20,031 nucleotides of DNA from a virus. The position numbers and the translations under genes were made by a program. A model generated the notes under the pieces. It ran no database searches. It was not told the DNA's origin and saw nothing but the letters and a program-made list of their open reading frames with translations. Shown piece after piece: positions 1-15,960 of this stretch (position 1 is its first letter; each line of letters starts with the position of its first letter). The stretch lies in IMG/VR virus record IMGVR_UViG_3300035670_006854, positions 1 to 20,031 of that record; one strand, given 5' to 3'.

Positions 1-372
1 AAACAGTTTAGCTCTTACTTCTCGCATGTTATCAGCGGCTGCGTCTTCAGCCTGCATTTTGCGGAAGAAAGTGGAGCTAAATTTAGTAGCGGCTGAGAAA
101 GGGTCAACAGAGTTTTCGTCAAAATCCGAGAAGAATTGAGTAATAGGGCTACCTGCAGTCATGTTATATTTAACAAGACTGAGGTGGGGGTTATCTTTTA
201 CTTCTCTGAGCGAGTAGGAGCCTTTGTCCGCAGGAGTTTCGGTTGAGGCATCATCGTCATAGTCGTCATAGTCGCCATAGTCGTCAGAGCCAGGCGTGCT
301 AAAAGAGTCGTCATCGCCATAGTCGTCAGAGCCAGGCGTGCTAAAAGAGTCTTCATCGGTTGGGTCTACCAT
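1..372 (-). CDS. Partial acidic protein with tandem 14-residue repeats (N-terminal 124 residues)
   Basis: This leftward reading frame starts at an ATG (372-370) and stays open to the left edge, so only 124 N-terminal residues are visible. The first 45 residues are extremely acidic. They contain two near-identical copies of a 14-residue unit, DSFSTPGSDDYGDD then DSFSTPGSDDYGDY, followed by more Asp/Tyr. After that the sequence becomes an ordinary mixed helical type with several Phe and Asp residues. No family is recognised. An intrinsically disordered acidic head suggests a structural, DNA-mimic or partner-binding role, but this is inference. Codon use favours GAC, TTC and GGC, as in the well-expressed structural genes, so it is probably a real virion or late gene. 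It is divergent from the gene at 517. A tape-measure or other tail gene is possible but unsupported. Confidence 0.75.
   Translation of the reverse strand, partial: MVDPTDEDSFSTPGSDDYGDDDSFSTPGSDDYGDYDDYDDDASTETPADKGSYSLREVKDNPHLSLVKYNMTAGSPITQFFSDFDENSVDPFSAATKFSSTFFRKMQAEDAAADNMREVRAKLF
272..351 (-). repeat. Two-copy 42-bp tandem repeat inside the acidic gene
   Basis: A 38-bp block is identical at 272-309 and 314-351, giving a period of 42 bp (14 codons). It encodes the duplicated DSFSTPGSDDYGD unit. The identity at the DNA level, including third positions, points to a recent in-frame duplication. Confidence 0.9.
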
Positions 373-516: not shown

Positions 517-1293
517 ATGGCTGATAAACCGATATTAACAATCGATTCAACTCCTAATAAAGTAATAACAGTTAGTTATTATGTACCAGATTACGGTGAT
601 TACATTAAGGTAAAGAGGTTATATCCATATCCCACGAGGGAGGGGGAGCAGAGGCCGCCGTATAGTGTTGAGGAGCTTCTATTTGCCTATCTTATTGTAG
701 AACTAAAAGCAAAAGGAAAACCAGTTGCATTAGACCCACAAGATTTGCCTTCTAGGTTAGAACCATTTGCTATTGATGACCGTCAATATGCGATGTTAGA
801 GTTTATTAGTACATGTTTTCCTGATGACGACCAGCAGAAAGCGGCCAAGAACTTTGCTATGGAGCAGAGGAGAGGAGAAGCTAAGCCTACTTTACACATT
901 CCAGGTGTTGTAACTCCAAATGGTAGAAGTTACACTTTTGAGAGGCCGAATACAGGGGTACAGTGGAAAGCTGATAATAACTACAAAGGGGCATCCGAGA
1001 ACGGCTGTACTTTAGACGAGTATATGCTAGCGATGTGTTTAACGCATGTAGACAATAAGAAGATTGAACCTACAAAAGATCCAATTGATGTATTTGCCAG
1101 TGAGAGTATTGAGTTAGTGCAGTTTTTAGCTATTGTGTTTGTGAATGCGTTCTTATTAGATGATGATGCGGCGAAGGATGCAAAAAACAAGGGAAAGTTA
1201 AACAAACAGAAGTTGAGAGCCGTACTTGGGAACACCAAGTCTGCTACACGCCATACAGTAGATACTACAGGTACGTCGGCACCTCAAGTATAG
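517..1293 (+). CDS. Putative tail assembly chaperone-like protein, zero-frame product of a frameshift pair
   Basis: The 258-aa protein opens the rightward structural cluster. It has a beta-rich N-terminus, a helical middle, and a helical stretch around residues 165-218 that ends in a run of Asp (LLDDD). This composition loosely resembles the G part of phage tail assembly chaperones, but no family is firmly recognised. The main support is translational. Codons 222-224 (GCA AAA AAC) contain the classical slippery heptamer A AAA AAC in the correct phase, and the -1 frame is open from 1167 to 1772. Ribosomes that do not slip finish at the TAG at 1291-1293. Those that slip make a product of about 418 residues. 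Its place directly before the portal is unusual for a tail chaperone, so another head or tail structural role is possible. Confidence 0.6.
   Translation: MADKPILTIDSTPNKVITVSYYVPDYGDYIKVKRLYPYPTREGEQRPPYSVEELLFAYLIVELKAKGKPVALDPQDLPSRLEPFAIDDRQYAMLEFISTCFPDDDQQKAAKNFAMEQRRGEAKPTLHIPGVVTPNGRSYTFERPNTGVQWKADNNYKGASENGCTLDEYMLAMCLTHVDNKKIEPTKDPIDVFASESIELVQFLAIVFVNAFLLDDDAAKDAKNKGKLNKQKLRAVLGNTKSATRHTVDTTGTSAPQV
1182..1188 (+). promoter_or_regulatory. Candidate -1 ribosomal frameshift site A AAA AAC
   Basis: The heptamer AAAAAAC sits in the X XXY YYZ phase of the 517 frame: the first A is the third base of GCA, followed by AAA and AAC. After a -1 slip, reading continues at 1188 with CAA GGG AAA GTT, in the same frame as 1338-1772, with no stop in between. 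A 6-bp perfect hairpin, ACTTGG (1224-1229) with CCAAGT (1235-1240), lies downstream but begins 36 nt after the heptamer, further than usual for a stimulator. An AAGGA at 1174-1178 lies 3 nt upstream, closer than the spacing known for dnaX-type stimulation. Confidence 0.65.
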
Positions 1294-1772
1294 AGTTAGG
1301 CAATTCAACTGTTGCGTTCTGTTCGCACATACCGGCGATGCCTATTGCGGCTAACGTGTTGATATCTGGCAGGCTGGCTATTTTTCCATCATGGTTTCCG
1401 ATTGAGAAGAGGTATTATTTTCAAACTCAACAAGAAGCAGATAATTTTACAATAAGCGAAAGCCTTAGACTTGACGCCGAAGCAGAACTATTTAGTAAGA
1501 GATACGATTTAAGTAGTTTTATAGCGATAAATCAATTTGTTAAAGTAGATATTCTGGATTGGTTAGGTTTAAGGGATTCGCAGTTTGTAAAAGAGTATGG
1601 TTTACCTGAAGCTGTAAAGAAGGCTTTGGCTTACGAAGTTGCAAATATAGCCCGCGATCAGGATAGCAAGAGGAGAGAGCAAGAACGCCTGCTAGAAATG
1701 AAAAATATGGAATACAACAGTCAGCTTAAATTCGGCGCTTCAAATACTTCTTTTGGTAAGGTGTATGGTTAA
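1188..1772 (+). CDS. -1 frame extension of the putative chaperone (C-terminal domain of the fusion)
   Basis: This frame is open from 1167 (after a TGA at 1164-1166) to the TAA at 1770-1772. It overlaps the upstream gene by about 127 nt. Its first ATG is at 1338, giving a 144-aa protein, but that ATG has no Shine-Dalgarno site. The codons between 1188 and 1337 also read as normal protein, for example the segment YRYVGTSSIELGNS. It is therefore best read as 194 residues added to residues 1-224 of the upstream product. The C-terminal part is helical and charged, with a stretch near the end rich in Arg, Glu and Lys that resembles the tail of chaperone extensions. Independent translation from 1338 cannot be excluded, and a missing A in the A6 run would give the same picture. 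Confidence 0.6.
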   Translation, partial: QGKVKQTEVESRTWEHQVCYTPYSRYYRYVGTSSIELGNSTVAFCSHIPAMPIAANVLISGRLAIFPSWFPIEKRYYFQTQQEADNFTISESLRLDAEAELFSKRYDLSSFIAINQFVKVDILDWLGLRDSQFVKEYGLPEAVKKALAYEVANIARDQDSKRREQERLLEMKNMEYNSQLKFGASNTSFGKVYG

Positions 1773-1794: not shown

Positions 1795-3225
1795 ATGACA
1801 GATATTGAATATCCCGATAAACGCTCTGCCAGAGGTAAATTTACTCAGCTAGGTATGCATAGCTCGCTCACCTATGCTAGAAGATTGCCCCATGTGCGCA
1901 TAAGACTCTACGAACGATTAGCTAAACAAGACTTAACTGTAAAGACTGCCTTAAACACACTCATTGACTATATAGTATCTACTATAGGGGACGTAACGCA
2001 TCCAGATCCTGAGATAGCAGATTTCTTAAATACAAATTTAAGGAGAATGGAGGACACGTTGGGTGTCAGCTGGAAGAACTGTTTAAGAGTAGCCGAATTC
2101 ACTAAGCTGTGGGCCGGAGCTTCTGTTTCTGAATTAATGTTTAACCTAGAGTTTGGTACACTAACTCTAGCAGACATAATCACGTATCATCCATCTACAA
2201 TCTTTATATATACAAATAAGAAAGGTAGATTAGTAGATGGGGATCCTACGTGGGATGGGCATAGGAGGTCTGGGGTGTACCAGACGGTAGTGGGGTCAAC
2301 CACAGCGGAGAAGAGGTTAGACTTATGGAAGATATTGTATTTATGTAACGAGCAGGATTTTGGTAATTACTATGGTCAATCCATTGTGGGGCCTTGCTAC
2401 AAATGGGAGAGGCTAAAGAATGCGGTAATAGACCTAATGATGATTTACATGGAGAAAGCGGGGCATAGGTTAACGTGGATAGCATCAACGAGTTCGCCGA
2501 CTAACCAATCGAGGTTAAATCCTTCTACAGGGGAGGAAGAGCCGATTACGACATTTGACTTATTAAAAGAGCAGATAGACGCTGATGAAGGGATTAAGAA
2601 CACGTTAATGTTACCGTTTAATATAGATGGTGCCCGGCCGGAGGTTGGTTCTATACCACAAGCGGACATAATAGGAAACACTTATTTAGATGCTATATGG
2701 TATGCTGACCAAGAGAGTGTAAGGCATATAATACCCTACTTTTTAATATCTGACAGAAGTTTAGGTTTAAATCCTGAGTCAGTGGAGAGAAGGATGGAGG
2801 TATTTTACGAGTCATTAGAAGCCAAAAGAGAGCAGTTAACTGCGGCGTTGATAAAGCAGGTATTTACGTTATTAATTCAATGGAATTTTAATAGGGAGTC
2901 AGCTAAAACTCCCCCAAGATTTACAAGAATATACTCAGACCGTTCTGAGGATAGGGTAGCTACCATGCAAGTAATAAAAGGCTTAACTGAGATAGGATGT
3001 TTAAACCCAAGGAATGATGAAGACTGGAAAATGATAAGACAGATGGTTAGACTGGGTGGTAGACAAATCGAACCTGACGATTTGAAGTTTATCGAACAAG
3101 TGGTTGTAGAACCTAGACAAAAAACACAACCGTCAGACGTTGGACCAAACGGTGCAGGAAAGCCAGGTAGGTCTACAGGTTCCACCACCAAACAAATCAA
3201 AGCCAGAGATAAACAAACCTCTTAA
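1795..3225 (+). CDS. Phage portal protein, Mu gp29 / DUF935-like
   Basis: The 476-aa protein fits the portal family of Mu-type phages (DUF935). These form the dodecameric ring at one prohead vertex through which DNA is packaged and the tail is attached. The N-terminal half has the expected order: a helical stretch with repeated-target wording (VKTALNTLIDYIVSTIG), a D/P-rich segment, an amphipathic helix with W and an SVSELMF strand, then ADIITYHPSTIFIY, close to the family's 'HRPPRWFRF' position. The segment WKILYLCNEQDFGNYYGQS matches the family's 'yG.Sl' clip region. Residues 440-476 are basic, Pro/Gly/Lys-rich and probably disordered. Length is normal for the family. It starts at an ATG without a Shine-Dalgarno site, 22 bp after the frameshift gene, and ends 6 bp from the stop of the convergent SWIM gene. 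Confidence 0.8.
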   Translation: MTDIEYPDKRSARGKFTQLGMHSSLTYARRLPHVRIRLYERLAKQDLTVKTALNTLIDYIVSTIGDVTHPDPEIADFLNTNLRRMEDTLGVSWKNCLRVAEFTKLWAGASVSELMFNLEFGTLTLADIITYHPSTIFIYTNKKGRLVDGDPTWDGHRRSGVYQTVVGSTTAEKRLDLWKILYLCNEQDFGNYYGQSIVGPCYKWERLKNAVIDLMMIYMEKAGHRLTWIASTSSPTNQSRLNPSTGEEEPITTFDLLKEQIDADEGIKNTLMLPFNIDGARPEVGSIPQADIIGNTYLDAIWYADQESVRHIIPYFLISDRSLGLNPESVERRMEVFYESLEAKREQLTAALIKQVFTLLIQWNFNRESAKTPPRFTRIYSDRSEDRVATMQVIKGLTEIGCLNPRNDEDWKMIRQMVRLGGRQIEPDDLKFIEQVVVEPRQKTQPSDVGPNGAGKPGRSTGSTTKQIKARDKQTS

Positions 3226-3231
3226 TCAACC

Positions 3232-3843
3232 TTAAACAATCTCCAGAACGCCGCTTAATTTATTCCTGTTAGATGCTAGAGATCTACCTGATCTTAAATG
3301 TTTACAGTCTCTATACACACTAAAAGTATCACAGGTACATGAATAAGTTGTTACCATATTTTGACTTAACTGACTGCTAATAAACAGGAAATGACTCCCC
3401 TTCACCTCTTTTATTTTGTACCCCTGACTTAACATAGAGCACAATATTAAGTTGTTGTAAGTTACTTCTACTATCGGTTTGCTCGGTAATTCAATACAAA
3501 CTTCTTTATGATAGAAAGTATAGTAAAGTTTTCCGTTTTTAATTGAAGAGTAGTCTATACTTGTTTTTATTAGCTCCTGTATACATAAGTTAGCTATACA
3601 TAGTAGGAGGCTTGAGCAATCAAGTTTTAGGTTTAGGATTAAAGACTGAGCTGTTACTATGTTTATAGAGTAGTGGTAGAAACCGGGTATCTTATCAAAG
3701 TTTATCTTTAAAGTTTGTGCTTTGTTTTTATACATTTCAAGATAAAACTCGATTTCTATAAAGTCTGTTTGTAGGCTAACGTTTTGGATACAAACGCCTT
3801 TATAGATATCAAAAAAAGACAACAAAAACGATTTAGATTCCAT
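3232..3843 (-). CDS. SWIM zinc-finger protein on the strand opposite the structural genes
   Basis: The 203-aa protein is read leftward and ends in a SWIM-type zinc-binding motif, CTCDTFSVYRDCKH (C169, C171, C180, H182, pattern CxC-x8-CxH). SWIM domains bind DNA or protein and occur in bacterial helicase-linked proteins, archaeal recombination partners and transposases. A small stand-alone SWIM protein in a phage virion module is unusual. The preceding 165 residues are beta-rich with scattered Cys and are not recognised. The ATG at 3843 was chosen over an upstream TTG at 3870, because the TTG would overlap the divergent gene at 3846. The two divergent start codons are then separated by 2 bp. 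The stop lies 6 bp from the portal stop. It looks like an independently regulated accessory (moron-like) gene; its function is unknown. Confidence 0.75.
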   Translation of the reverse strand: MESKSFLLSFFDIYKGVCIQNVSLQTDFIEIEFYLEMYKNKAQTLKINFDKIPGFYHYSINIVTAQSLILNLKLDCSSLLLCIANLCIQELIKTSIDYSSIKNGKLYYTFYHKEVCIELPSKPIVEVTYNNLILCSMLSQGYKIKEVKGSHFLFISSQLSQNMVTTYSCTCDTFSVYRDCKHLRSGRSLASNRNKLSGVLEIV

Positions 3844-3845
3844 AT

Positions 3846-4595
3846 ATGAATGACAATCAGTTAATATCAATGCTAATAAACAATACAGACTTAGAGAAAG
3901 TAGCTGAGTTAGAGGTAGAGCCTATTGTAGCTCAAAGGGAGGAAGTGTCAAAAGAACAGGTACAAAGGGTGCCAACGTTAGTTGACAGTAGTTCTGAAAG
4001 CAAGCCTGACGTGGCGGTGCCTGTAATTAAGCTATCTGACTATGAGTATAATGTACCTGCAGGCAATTCTTTAATGCTAGAGGATTGTAACATACCTAAT
4101 TATAGGCTAGCAAAGTGTTGTGCTAATTGTACTTTTTCTATTTATGATCCAGTGAAGCACAGCGCAAGATGTGTAAAGTGGGATTGTTGTATAGTACCGG
4201 TATATTACTGCGATGAGCATACAGACCCTAAGAGTTTGATTGATAGCAGTGAGGGGGAGTACGAGAGTTATTCTGAGAAGCCGGAGCAATCAGAGAAGCT
4301 TGTAGGGGAAGTAGAGCCTGAACTTTTAGATAGTGTAGCTGAAAAAAGTGCAGAGGTAGAGCTAGAAAGCGTGAATAGTGCTGAAGTTACTTCTGAAGTT
4401 ACTTCTGAAGTTATTTCTGAAGTTGTAGAACAACGACTAGACTTAGTAGAAGGTGGATACGAAGATAAGGAGCTATACCAACAGGTATTAACTAACGCTC
4501 CTAGCTTCGAGCCGGAAGTTTACAAGCAGGCTTACATAAAGAAAAAGTACGCACAACTTTACAAAGAAAAATACGCAAATACAGTTTCCAAATAG
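3846..4595 (+). CDS. Acidic protein with a Cys-rich zinc-ribbon-like centre
   Basis: The 249-aa protein has acidic, low-complexity flanks around a Cys-rich core at residues 81-125: CCANC (C91, C92, C95), C109, C114, C115, C122 and H125. The layout CxxC...C...C...YYCDEH resembles small phage zinc-ribbon-like modules of the kind 'C.NC.f...C...V.p..yC', so metal binding is likely. Residues around 178-194 are built from a 4-residue repeat (SEVT/SEVI). The C-terminus is a Lys/Tyr-rich helix (YIKKKYAQLYKEKY). It starts 2 bp from the divergent SWIM gene and precedes the protease-scaffold gene, so it may be part of the head module. No specific function can be given. Confidence 0.7.
   Translation: MNDNQLISMLINNTDLEKVAELEVEPIVAQREEVSKEQVQRVPTLVDSSSESKPDVAVPVIKLSDYEYNVPAGNSLMLEDCNIPNYRLAKCCANCTFSIYDPVKHSARCVKWDCCIVPVYYCDEHTDPKSLIDSSEGEYESYSEKPEQSEKLVGEVEPELLDSVAEKSAEVELESVNSAEVTSEVTSEVISEVVEQRLDLVEGGYEDKELYQQVLTNAPSFEPEVYKQAYIKKKYAQLYKEKYANTVSK
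4380..4427 (+). repeat. Four-copy 12-bp tandem repeat within the Cys-rich protein gene
   Basis: The unit TCTGAAGTTACT is repeated about four times (4380-4427) with minor changes (first base G in copy 1, ATT and GTA endings in copies 3 and 4). It encodes (A/S)EVT-SEVT-SEVI-SEVV. This is a simple in-frame expansion within an acidic disordered region. Confidence 0.85.
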
Positions 4596-11584: not shown

Positions 11585-14500
11585 ATGCCTGCACCATCAA
11601 TTAAATTTATAGACAGTTTGGTAGGGCCATCACAGGTTACCAAGCAGTGGAGAGACACAGTAGGGGTTATTGGTACATTTAGCAGAGGGCCGGAGTCTCC
11701 TATTTTAGTAGAAGATCTTAAGACTTTTGCCAGTATATATGGAGTTGATTCGTCTAGCGGGTCTTTGTTTGTTCAGCAAGCAATGGCTAATGGTCTAAAT
11801 AGATTTGTAGTAGTGAGAGCTTCCGCTAGTTCTAATCCATCATATTCAGCACTTACCTTTACTTCTGGTAATGCGCAGATAAGCCCTGTTATTGGTTACG
11901 TACTAAATGGAAACAGCTTAGAGCCAAGTTCCTATAGAACTACTGGGTTAAAAATAGACTTTGATTACATAGGAAGTCCAATTTCTATAAATCCTACTTT
12001 TTCCCCTGTAAATTCTAGAAGAGGTCAAGTTAACTTACCCAATTTTGTAGGACAAGCTAGATTTAACTTCTACGTTACTAAAGCGGTAGAAGGTAGAAGT
12101 TCATCTCCCCTGTTGCACGACACAAATAAAAAACTAAGAGTAGACACAATACTAGGGCCCACCCCAGGATACTTTTTAGGGCTTATTAACACAGCACCTA
12201 ACAGCAATCCTGACTATGCCACACTGAAGGAATACATTCGCCCTGGTTATTCTTTAGTTTCAAATGAAACACACCTTTCAGATAATTTAATTATTGCTTC
12301 TGATATCATACCTAACTACTCCCAAGACAATGATGCCTTGCTAATACGGTCTGATAAAAAGCATAGCCACGCCGTGTGGGGGGTTGTATCGGGGGTAGAG
12401 AGTGGTCAATCTCAAGTAAAAGTTGGTTTTATTAAAGTAAAACCAAGGCCAAGTACTAGTACTACTACTACTTTAAGCGAAGACTATATTCAGACAGCAT
12501 CAACAACATCAAATGGACAAACCACTAAGGTAAATACTTTCGAAGCCCTAAAAGAGATGGTATTGCTTATAGACGGCGTCGAGTATAAGCAGTCCACCAC
12601 TGCTCCAGTACCTGAAACTAGTTCTGTTTTTGCTTTAAATGCGGCTGTAAATACCGTCGATGGTTTAGGGGATGATTTAGATTTTAGTTTTGATGACCTA
12701 ATAGATGAAAATCTCTCTGAAGGTACTGCTTTAGATAATATCGCTGGCACCAGATTTACATTTACTTTACCCTCTGGCACTTCAACAAGAGCTATCCAAG
12801 GTGGCAGTACTGTAACCTTCTTGCCCAAAGTCAGCGCAAAATCTACTGACAACAAAACAATTACAATAACTGGCCTATACTCCTATACTGTGGGTATGGA
12901 AGGAAGCGGGGTAACATCTCCAGATGGTAACATACTCAGCTCTACCACTAAAGATAAATATTACCTTGTTATAAAAGGTAAAAAGTATACTATAAATAGC
13001 GTAGCAGCAGTAGTAAATAGCGTAGGAGGAGTAGATACTACTTTCCATGAACAGCTAAGTATTACTTTAGTGGAAGATTATACTGGTACTGTAGGGGATG
13101 CAGTATACATCTACTACAGACCTACTAGTGTAACAGGAAATCTAGAAACAGAGTACAAAATCCATGCGCCAAAGATTGCTCAGTACGTAATGGGTTATTC
13201 GTTTAATAGCCAATCTGGGTCTATGGATTCTGATTACTTTACTCTAACTCAAGCGTACAATACAGGAACAAGTACTGTACAACTTGATAATACTTTCTTA
13301 TTAACGGAAAGGGCAGGGGGTAGGTATATTAGCTTTGGTTATTTCATTAAAGCACCTTTCGAGACAGATTATACTAGTAAGGCCTTTCCAGTATTAACTA
13401 AACCATTTGGTATTGAGTTAATGTATGGGACACAGGGAGTCGCGGCGCTACCGTTATCAACTGGAGGTTCTTTTGCTGTACCTTTTGCTAAAACTTCTAT
13501 TACATTAGGTTCAAGTAGTGCTGGAGACCCTAATGCTTTCCAGGATGGAGATTTAGCTACGGACATTACTAAGAGCATAGAAACTGCTTTACGGTCTAAT
13601 AGTGTAATCTCATATCTAATAAGTAACATTACACTGGAAGATTCAATCTTAGTAGACAACGCTACAGAGTTTAAACCCTCTATCTCTTTCACATCTTTTT
13701 ATAGTGGTGAACAAGCTAATAGAATTAACTGGAAGGTCACTAGATACACAAATGACCCTCAGGGCAGCTCAACAAAAGTCAAAGATTTGCTATTAGGTGC
13801 AAAAGCTACGACAGACGCTAACTATGGAAGAACAAACTACTTTGAAGGTGGTTATGACGGCCCCAGTTTTGCGTTTAGAGACCTTTATTCTGCTGATGGA
13901 ACTTTACTGTGGAGAATAGAATCCGGCACCCCTGGATTACACGGTAACAATATCTCTTGCACTGTAAGAAACCAAAAGACTAACGGCAACTACGCCTCTT
14001 TTGAAATCGAAGTCCGAGACCAAAACACAACTGTTATTTCTTCAGATTCTAGAATTGTCACTGTTGTTAACAGCTCTTTGATTGACTTTACTACGGGCCG
14101 AAGTTTAGCTTTTAGTAGCACTAGCTTAGTACAAGCTTACTTTATGCCAGTAGTAAGTGCTATTAGTGGGAATTTAGCATTAGACGCTACTAAAAATAGA
14201 TTCTTTAGATTATCGCCTCAGCGTCTTGCGCCTCCTTTGGAGAAGATAAGTTCAAGTTTTTCTGGTGGGGATACAGGCTTTTCTCGCCAAGGAAGTACAG
14301 CACTTTCCTCCTTCTTCTTAAAAGGTGGCAGTGATGGTACTTTAACAGCTCCGAGTAAAAAATCTCTAGCTCAAGGCTTAATACGCGGACTAGAAGCTTT
14401 GGATAGTATTAATGTCGCAGCTATTGCTCTACCTGGCATCAACTACGGTGACCAAGATTATCAAGCTGTATTTGAGAAAGCTGTACACAGTGTTAATTCT

Positions 14501-15226
14501 TCTACTCCTGAATCAGGGCTAAGAACTGCAGTCTTTGAGTTAGCTCCAGGTATTAACGCCGATCGAGCCGCAACCCTTGCTGCAGAACTTGATAATGAAC
14601 GTATTGTACTGTTAGCCGGTAGCCAGCTCATGCGGGGCGATAATGGCCTGCTAGTACCTAACGTCGGCTCCTCTGGTTCATACCTCGGTTACGACCTATC
14701 TCGTGCTCCTAACTTATCTCCCGCTGCATCATACTCGGGTGCTTTAGTTAGACGAGTAACTTCTGTCGACACACTTACTAATACCGCTTTCTTGGACAAA
14801 ATGTCTGATGCCGGTGTTGAAGTTCTGCTGTTTGATGCTAACATCGGCGGTTTCCGCTTCTGTAATGGTTTAACTACTAGCAAACAGCTGGCTAAACGAT
14901 ACAGGTCAGTTGTTCGCACCTTAGACCAAGTCAAAACAGACTTATACTTAGCATTGCAATGGTGCCGTTCTCGCCCAAATACTCCTCAGTTACAGTCAGA
15001 AGTGGCCAGTGCATGTGATACCTATTTGTACAGTAAACTCAGAGATGGTTGGTTTAGTAATCTTCAGCCTACTATTTGCTCTGAAGCCAATAATACTGTT
15101 AGAGATCAACTAGAAGGTCGCCTTAATGTCAGAATACGGTTTACTCCTTCATTCCCAGCAGACACTATTGTAGTATCCACAATTATGGATATTTCTGACG
15201 ACTTTACTATTCAAACCACTATTTAA
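11585..15226 (+). CDS. Contractile tail sheath protein, unusually large (1213 aa)
   Basis: The N-terminal 80 residues have the sheath start (PSIKFIDSLVGPSQVTKQWR, then GTFSRGPESP and FVQQAMANGLNRFVVVRAS). The core resumes near residue 765 with AFRDLYSADGTLLWRIESGT and PGLHGNNISCTVRN, the 'akspG.wGN.i.v.v' region of the family. The C-terminal 300 residues carry the usual ALPGINYGDQDYQAVFEKAV, the GGFRFCNG strand and helical end (RLNVRIRFTPSFPADTIVV). Known sheaths are usually about 350-700 aa. Subtracting residues 85-760 leaves about 540, a normal size. The roughly 670-residue insertion is Ser/Thr- and beta-rich, with a low-complexity S/T stretch at residues 290-296 and beyond. It is probably a surface decoration of the contractile tail. 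The start ATG lacks a Shine-Dalgarno site. Confidence 0.85.
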   Translation: MPAPSIKFIDSLVGPSQVTKQWRDTVGVIGTFSRGPESPILVEDLKTFASIYGVDSSSGSLFVQQAMANGLNRFVVVRASASSNPSYSALTFTSGNAQISPVIGYVLNGNSLEPSSYRTTGLKIDFDYIGSPISINPTFSPVNSRRGQVNLPNFVGQARFNFYVTKAVEGRSSSPLLHDTNKKLRVDTILGPTPGYFLGLINTAPNSNPDYATLKEYIRPGYSLVSNETHLSDNLIIASDIIPNYSQDNDALLIRSDKKHSHAVWGVVSGVESGQSQVKVGFIKVKPRPSTSTTTTLSEDYIQTASTTSNGQTTKVNTFEALKEMVLLIDGVEYKQSTTAPVPETSSVFALNAAVNTVDGLGDDLDFSFDDLIDENLSEGTALDNIAGTRFTFTLPSGTSTRAIQGGSTVTFLPKVSAKSTDNKTITITGLYSYTVGMEGSGVTSPDGNILSSTTKDKYYLVIKGKKYTINSVAAVVNSVGGVDTTFHEQLSITLVEDYTGTVGDAVYIYYRPTSVTGNLETEYKIHAPKIAQYVMGYSFNSQSGSMDSDYFTLTQAYNTGTSTVQLDNTFLLTERAGGRYISFGYFIKAPFETDYTSKAFPVLTKPFGIELMYGTQGVAALPLSTGGSFAVPFAKTSITLGSSSAGDPNAFQDGDLATDITKSIETALRSNSVISYLISNITLEDSILVDNATEFKPSISFTSFYSGEQANRINWKVTRYTNDPQGSSTKVKDLLLGAKATTDANYGRTNYFEGGYDGPSFAFRDLYSADGTLLWRIESGTPGLHGNNISCTVRNQKTNGNYASFEIEVRDQNTTVISSDSRIVTVVNSSLIDFTTGRSLAFSSTSLVQAYFMPVVSAISGNLALDATKNRFFRLSPQRLAPPLEKISSSFSGGDTGFSRQGSTALSSFFLKGGSDGTLTAPSKKSLAQGLIRGLEALDSINVAAIALPGINYGDQDYQAVFEKAVHSVNSSTPESGLRTAVFELAPGINADRAATLAAELDNERIVLLAGSQLMRGDNGLLVPNVGSSGSYLGYDLSRAPNLSPAASYSGALVRRVTSVDTLTNTAFLDKMSDAGVEVLLFDANIGGFRFCNGLTTSKQLAKRYRSVVRTLDQVKTDLYLALQWCRSRPNTPQLQSEVASACDTYLYSKLRDGWFSNLQPTICSEANNTVRDQLEGRLNVRIRFTPSFPADTIVVSTIMDISDDFTIQTTI

Positions 15227-15246: not shown

Positions 15247-15960
15247 ATGGCAGCAGGAACCGAAGGCTTTGATAGTAATACTAAAAGAATTATTACTAAT
15301 AACGCCTCGTTAGACCCTATACAAGGTTTCCACCTTAACGTATACATGAATGACCAAGCTAGTGGACTCCCAGTTTTAGTAGGGGGATTTACTTCCTTCC
15401 AAAAGACTATGAGAAACGCCACAGAAGCATATATGCCGTTTGGGCGTAAGCATGCGAGGCTATTAGACGGAGAATTTCAGTATGGTTGGGTGTTAGAGCG
15501 GGGGTTACTGGATATAGGAATTTTGAAGGACATATTTGGCGTTAATGACGTAGGTCCTGAGTTTAGCGCTGAGCCTACTCCCAGGTTTACCATTACAGTC
15601 GAGATTAATGCTCCGGAACTTCACGACAAAGGGATAAACTTCCCAATAGGTAAAAAAACTGAACAAGCCGGTCAAAAAAGGTCTGCAAAAGGGAAATATC
15701 AACTAATATTTGCTAAAATTGATTCTGTAACTTTAGGAGCAATGGCCGGCAGGTCTGTAGTAGCTACTAGATTTGAGGGTTTATGCGAAAGTATTAGATT
15801 CATCGAAGGGGGAACCTCATTATTAAATAACTCTGGAAGTAGACTTGGAACTGTTGATAACGTCAACGGCGTCAATTTAGATAATCTAGTAAATAAAACC
15901 GTAAGCCCAGGAACAGGAACAGGAGCAGGCAACGGAAGCGGCGACTACCTTTACAGATAG
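15247..15960 (+). CDS. Tail tube protein
   Basis: The 237-aa protein directly follows the sheath and has the size and character of a contractile-tail tube protein. Its strands (FHLNVYMNDQASGLPVLVGG, LLDGEFQYGWVLERGL, FTITVEINA) and the closing RFEGLCESIRFIEGGTSL fit the tube fold, which stacks in hexameric rings inside the sheath. The C-terminus is a Gly/Thr-rich flexible tail (about residues 215-237). It has a strong ribosome binding site 20 bp after the sheath stop and ends ahead of the terminator at 16051. The tube assignment rests mainly on position after the sheath plus length and strand pattern. Confidence 0.75.
   Translation: MAAGTEGFDSNTKRIITNNASLDPIQGFHLNVYMNDQASGLPVLVGGFTSFQKTMRNATEAYMPFGRKHARLLDGEFQYGWVLERGLLDIGILKDIFGVNDVGPEFSAEPTPRFTITVEINAPELHDKGINFPIGKKTEQAGQKRSAKGKYQLIFAKIDSVTLGAMAGRSVVATRFEGLCESIRFIEGGTSLLNNSGSRLGTVDNVNGVNLDNLVNKTVSPGTGTGAGNGSGDYLYR

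Follow-up and report, generated by a model that had tools for sequence, protein, structure and literature searches.

A predicted -1 frameshift gene pair before the portal gene of an Ma-LMM01-like virus, very probably a tail assembly chaperone cassette with a duplicated domain

Background

Why should two overlapping reading frames, linked by in-phase slippery heptamers, stand directly before a portal gene and far from the tail tube gene? We met this arrangement in a virus record of 20,031 bases (the window, meaning the whole stretch of DNA analysed here), the portal and capsid of which have distant homologues in Microcystis phage Ma-LMM01 (LMM01). In phage lambda, gpG and gpGT share one start and are made as a short product and a product extended by -1 frameshifting; G_GGA_AAG has been named as a highly shift-prone heptamer in E. 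coli (PMC5009743). The comparisons below lead us to conclude that the window pair is very probably the tail assembly chaperone (TAC) cassette of an Ma-LMM01-like myophage, in which ribosomes would slip at A_AAA_AAC and/or G_GGA_AAG to give short and fused products.

Methods

Direct searches of viral contigs and phages with the C part of the pair gave no match, and portal and capsid proteins were then used as anchors. Relatives were gathered by capsid- and portal-based searches, after which the pair was located with profiles of both parts. In-phase X_XXY_YYZ heptamers were counted in a table of 30 pairs and compared with the number expected under synonymous shuffling of the same genes; slip sites were compared after codon alignment. 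Homology to the L068/L069 pair was scored with leave-out HMMs, built without these two loci. Structures of both parts were predicted with AlphaFold (AF2), and the N model was compared with BFVD and the PDB using Foldseek.

Results

Two frames and two in-phase heptamers

The features of the locus are collected in Table 1. A first-pass annotation of the same DNA had called -1 slippage at an in-phase A_AAA_AAC, a -1 frame open without an ATG until 1338, and a 418-aa fusion. All three hold: GCA AAA AAC occupies 1180-1188 in the 517-1293 frame, the -1 frame is open as described, and translation gives the fusion at the expected length. What that annotation did not mention is a second in-phase heptamer, G_GGA_AAG, which is common to most of the window's clade. 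A slip at either heptamer yields a 418-aa product, with residue 225 (Q vs K) as the sole difference between the two. The 13 main genes of the window contain 23 in-phase X_XXY_YYZ heptamers, and only beyond these two does the -1 frame stay open for more than 25 codons (194 and 191, respectively).

Table 1. Coordinates of the frameshift pair and its landmarks in the window
Feature	Position	Strand	Remarks
Putative TAC N part (gpG-like), zero-frame product	517..1293	+	ORF, 258 aa
Slippery heptamer 1, A_AAA_AAC	1182..1188	+	In phase; same codon column as A_AAA_AAG of LMM01 and many relatives
Slippery heptamer 2, G_GGA_AAG	1191..1197	+	In phase; same column as the sole heptamer of L008, L017, L018, L020, L021 and L023
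-1 open frame	1167..1772	+	Open 1167-1769; stop 1770-1772; first ATG 1338
Putative T-like C part	from ~1188-1189 (site 1) or 1197 (site 2) to 1769	+	194 or 191 aa; homologues, coding pattern
-1-frame bridge, N stop to first ATG	1294..1337	+	Conserved [ILV]PAxP-type stretch, indicating translation
Portal (Portal_Mu), direct downstream neighbour of the pair	1795..3225	+	PF06074, E=8e-16
Giant divergent gene, 5' end	1..372	-	Counterpart of the PLD-like giant gene adjoining the pair in L001 and others
Tail tube	15247..15960	+	Homologous to L102 tube, E=3e-13; phrog_34837

The layout is kept among relatives

The pair was located in about 30 relatives, and the -1 relation was found wherever both parts were seen. 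It is present in all 30 tabulated pairs, and 27 of these carry an in-phase heptamer within the overlap, against 8.03 expected. Identical copies were left out of this table, but near-identical rows (L005, L011, L012, L055 and L057; L017 and L018) were counted repeatedly, and the 27 are therefore not independent events. The three pairs lacking a canonical heptamer are L006, L049 and L062. None of the homologues examined has a single continuous frame. Thus the alignment of homologues, which the first-pass annotation had proposed as a check, favors a genuine -1 frameshift, with the two-frame layout and the slippery site both conserved.

Folding of the RNA downstream of the window site was no better than that of shuffled sequences (z=-0.02), and upstream Shine-Dalgarno-like stimulators gave no general signal among the sites.

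A doubled N domain

A profile built from N proteins with one domain matches the window N part twice, at residues 48-124 (i-E 5e-7) and 134-236 (i-E 3e-14). Two matches were also found in L001, L008, L017, L018, L020, L021, L023 and L030, and one copy in LMM01 and the remaining relatives. The AlphaFold model of the N part (pLDDT 88) repeats the same order of strands and helices. By profile matches and predicted fold, the 258-aa N part consists of two TAC domains of about 110 aa in tandem, a duplication missed by the first-pass annotation, which had drawn the parallel with TACs that the homology below bears out. Foldseek matches to the N model in BFVD are weak (best 2.7e-3) and include TACs, a pre-tape-measure chaperone and T4-like baseplate-hub-assembly proteins; in the PDB, the HK97 TAC 2ob9 was matched weakly (E=1.1, prob 0.44). 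The predicted fold of the C part is poor (pLDDT 64).

A probable chaperone away from the tail genes

Homologues of both parts form a pair in L069 that lies between the tube (12404) and the tape measure (13710), with T_TTT_TTG in phase; the tape measure there matches PF10145 (E=1.1e-45). The leave-out HMMs recover the L069 N part at 8.6e-20 and its C part at 6.5e-5, and an independent PHROG model matches the N part at 1.7e-4. In L102, the order is sheath, tube and then an N homologue. Since both of its parts are homologous to this canonically placed pair, the window pair is, by homology, a TAC displaced to the head end. The pair itself matched no TAC family in Pfam and no named TAC family in PHROGs; phrog_32670 (function unknown) was the only PHROG reached, via relatives.

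The window pair precedes the portal and does not lie between tube and tape measure, and after the tube the window holds neither a further N-profile match nor a small gene pair, in which L069 and L102 differ from it. The first-pass annotation had placed the pair correctly, directly before the portal and far from the tube. It had also put the pair far from the tape measure, but one of the two candidate tape-measure genes starts at 372 (minus strand), beside the pair. What it had missed is that the place before the portal is no peculiarity of this contig: among relatives it is a clade-wide rule, seen in every locus covering that stretch except L068/L069. That position, with the tube more than 13 kb from the pair in the window, is what would be expected if the frameshift were genuine and the product were a head or portal-assembly factor. 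We consider such a role unlikely in view of the homology of both parts to the L069 pair, with which the TAC-like fold matches agree, their E-values being weak.

On the reading of the pair as a TAC, most ribosomes would yield the 258-aa N protein (gpG-like), and a minority would slip -1 at A_AAA_AAC and/or G_GGA_AAG to make the 418-aa N+C fusion (gpGT-like), the slip frequency setting the ratio of N to N+C. If lambda is a guide, tape-measure binding would fall to the N domain and recruitment of tail tube subunits to the C extension. We infer this slippage, product ratio and chaperone action from the conserved pair and its homologues.

A divergent giant gene adjoins the pair in those relatives with enough sequence; in L006, L009 and L049, giant gene and pair share a strand. 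Several of these pair-adjoining genes are tied to LMM01 gp080 by profile or BLAST matches, and several giant genes have a PLD-like domain, in some cases below the Pfam cut-off. In LMM01 (gp120) and G012, another giant gene comes after the terminase; in G001 and G003, the neighborhood of the terminase includes a long gene that encodes several hydrophobic segments. Candidates for the tape measure are the gp080 type beside the pair (the window gene running from 372 on the minus strand) and the gp120 type after the terminase, which has more hydrophobic segments. Among eight records tried, only L069 matched the tape-measure family PF10145.

Several neighboring genes were recorded in passing. In G001, a giant open frame of 4484 aa stands beside the pair (G001:C1:8892-22343) and another of more than 5682 aa follows the terminase homologue (G001:C1 54181-71226). 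Between the portal and a 249-aa gene, the window has a 212-aa gene (3232-3870, minus strand) with a Cys/His-rich C-terminal stretch, CTCDTFSVYRDCKHLR; the same slot also holds a minus-strand gene in L001, L008 and LMM01 (gp084). The tail sheath of the window (11585-15226, plus strand) is very long at 1213 aa, and the sheath profile covers residues 655-1202 only.

Probable translation upstream of the internal ATG

Could the C part instead be a separate 144-aa protein, started at ATG 1338 and made without frameshifting? An ATG does occur at 1338, L001 and L008 have one at about that location, RefSeq annotates LMM01 gp082 as a gene of its own, and for T4-like phages the title of Vladimirov 2022 (cited in PMC12846349) reports TAC production by a route that does not involve frameshifting. 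Against this, the -1 frame stays open and resembles coding sequence ahead of the ATG. Over the 14 codons from the N stop to 1338, comparison with L001 gives 6, 4 and 12 changes at the first, second and third codon positions, and the [ILV]PAxP-type stretch is kept in the window, L001, L008, L017 and L020. Because of this excess at position 3 and the kept stretch, ribosomes most likely enter the -1 frame from upstream of ATG 1338. The substitution pattern within the overlap itself is not decisive, since the overlap also encodes the 0 frame. The ATGs of the window and L001 fall in different alignment columns, and the excess of in-phase heptamers (27 of 30 pairs against 8) likewise speaks for slippage, so that we regard a solely separate protein as very improbable. 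The first-pass annotation had also pointed to the lack of a ribosome binding site at 1338; the site is indeed lacking, but this is uninformative because the starts at 517, 1795, 11585, 16117 and 17927 lack one as well.

A sequencing or assembly error, in which a missing A in the A6 run of site 1 split one long gene into two frames (the caveat of that annotation), is hardly credible: an exact-match scan found no other contig covering the heptamer, but the same two-frame layout occurs in relatives, including the complete Ma-LMM01 genome, and several of them have another slippery sequence in that place or close to it.

Turnover of the slip site

With -1 frameshifting as the preferred reading, the slip sites themselves can be compared. 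Site 1 is most commonly A_AAA_AAG (L001, L005, L009, L011, L030, L031, L032, L034, L036, L037, L043, L055, L057, L063 and L067); it is A_AAA_AAA in L053 and A_AAA_AAC in the window. The base before the Lys codons comes from the Ala codon GCA in most site-1 rows and from TTA (Leu) in L030, and the Ala codon is therefore not a fixed feature. In the window's clade, G_GGA_AAG lies three codons after site 1. Six duplicated-domain rows have G_GGA_AAG only, site 1 being disabled (L008, L017, L018, L020, L021 and L023); the codon before the disabled site is GCG in L020 and GCT in the other five, and the codons after that position also differ in L008, L020, L021 and L023. In L050 and L039, site 1 is off and G_GGA_AAG is found further downstream.

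Both sites are present together in the window and L001, and we predict that both function. On a capsid tree, the window and L001 nest within the G_GGA_AAG group, pointing to a gain of site 1 there, although the midpoint rooting and the position of L030 (A_AAA_AAG), which branches near the base of the group, leave the direction unsettled. A fuller account, in which both slip sites of a duplicated-domain TAC work at a spacing of nine bases, one site is in the course of replacing the other and the chaperone has left the tail module for the head module, is one that we put forward tentatively, at somewhat less than an even chance.

Discussion

These results suggest what two hypothetical genes in the group of Microcystis phage Ma-LMM01 are likely to do, and indicate that a TAC can leave its usual place and persist in another throughout a diverse clade. 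With the TAC domain duplicated and the frameshift retained, chaperone stoichiometry on the tape measure becomes testable. The natural series of relatives with site 1 only, both sites, or site 2 only offers a way to ask how one frameshift site gives way to another without loss of the protein product.

One of the nearest known counterparts is the homologous pair of Ma-LMM01 and its relatives (phrog_32670), gp081/gp082, which shares the -1 relation and the place before the portal and has an A_AAA_AAG site; unlike in the window pair, its N part is a single domain of 120 aa and there is one slip site. The two genes are annotated as two hypothetical proteins, and our search of a literature collection with few subscription papers found no paper naming both 'Ma-LMM01' and 'tail assembly chaperone'. 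In our Ma-LMM01 segment (L073, 55000-104000), RefSeq starts gp082 inside the -1 frame and labels the portal homologue gp083 'tail protein'.

The L068/L069 pair (IMG/VR 2515154092) likewise has homologous N and C parts, the -1 relation and an in-phase heptamer, but it lies between tube and tape measure, uses T_TTT_TTG, and has a single N domain and a short C part. The T4-like TACs (baseplate hub assembly proteins) are among the weak predicted-fold matches of the window N part. The layout of the window pair is like that of lambda gpG/gpGT in its scheme of a short and a -1-extended product, and lambda itself uses G_GGA_AAG; unlike lambda, the window has a duplicated N domain, a pair placed before the portal and two candidate slip sites. 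A conserved -1 frameshift has also been inferred by comparison at the TAC locus of another myophage, Pakpunavirus Adele, where, in contrast to the window, the pair is upstream of the tape measure and the motif is GTTTTT (PMC12846349).
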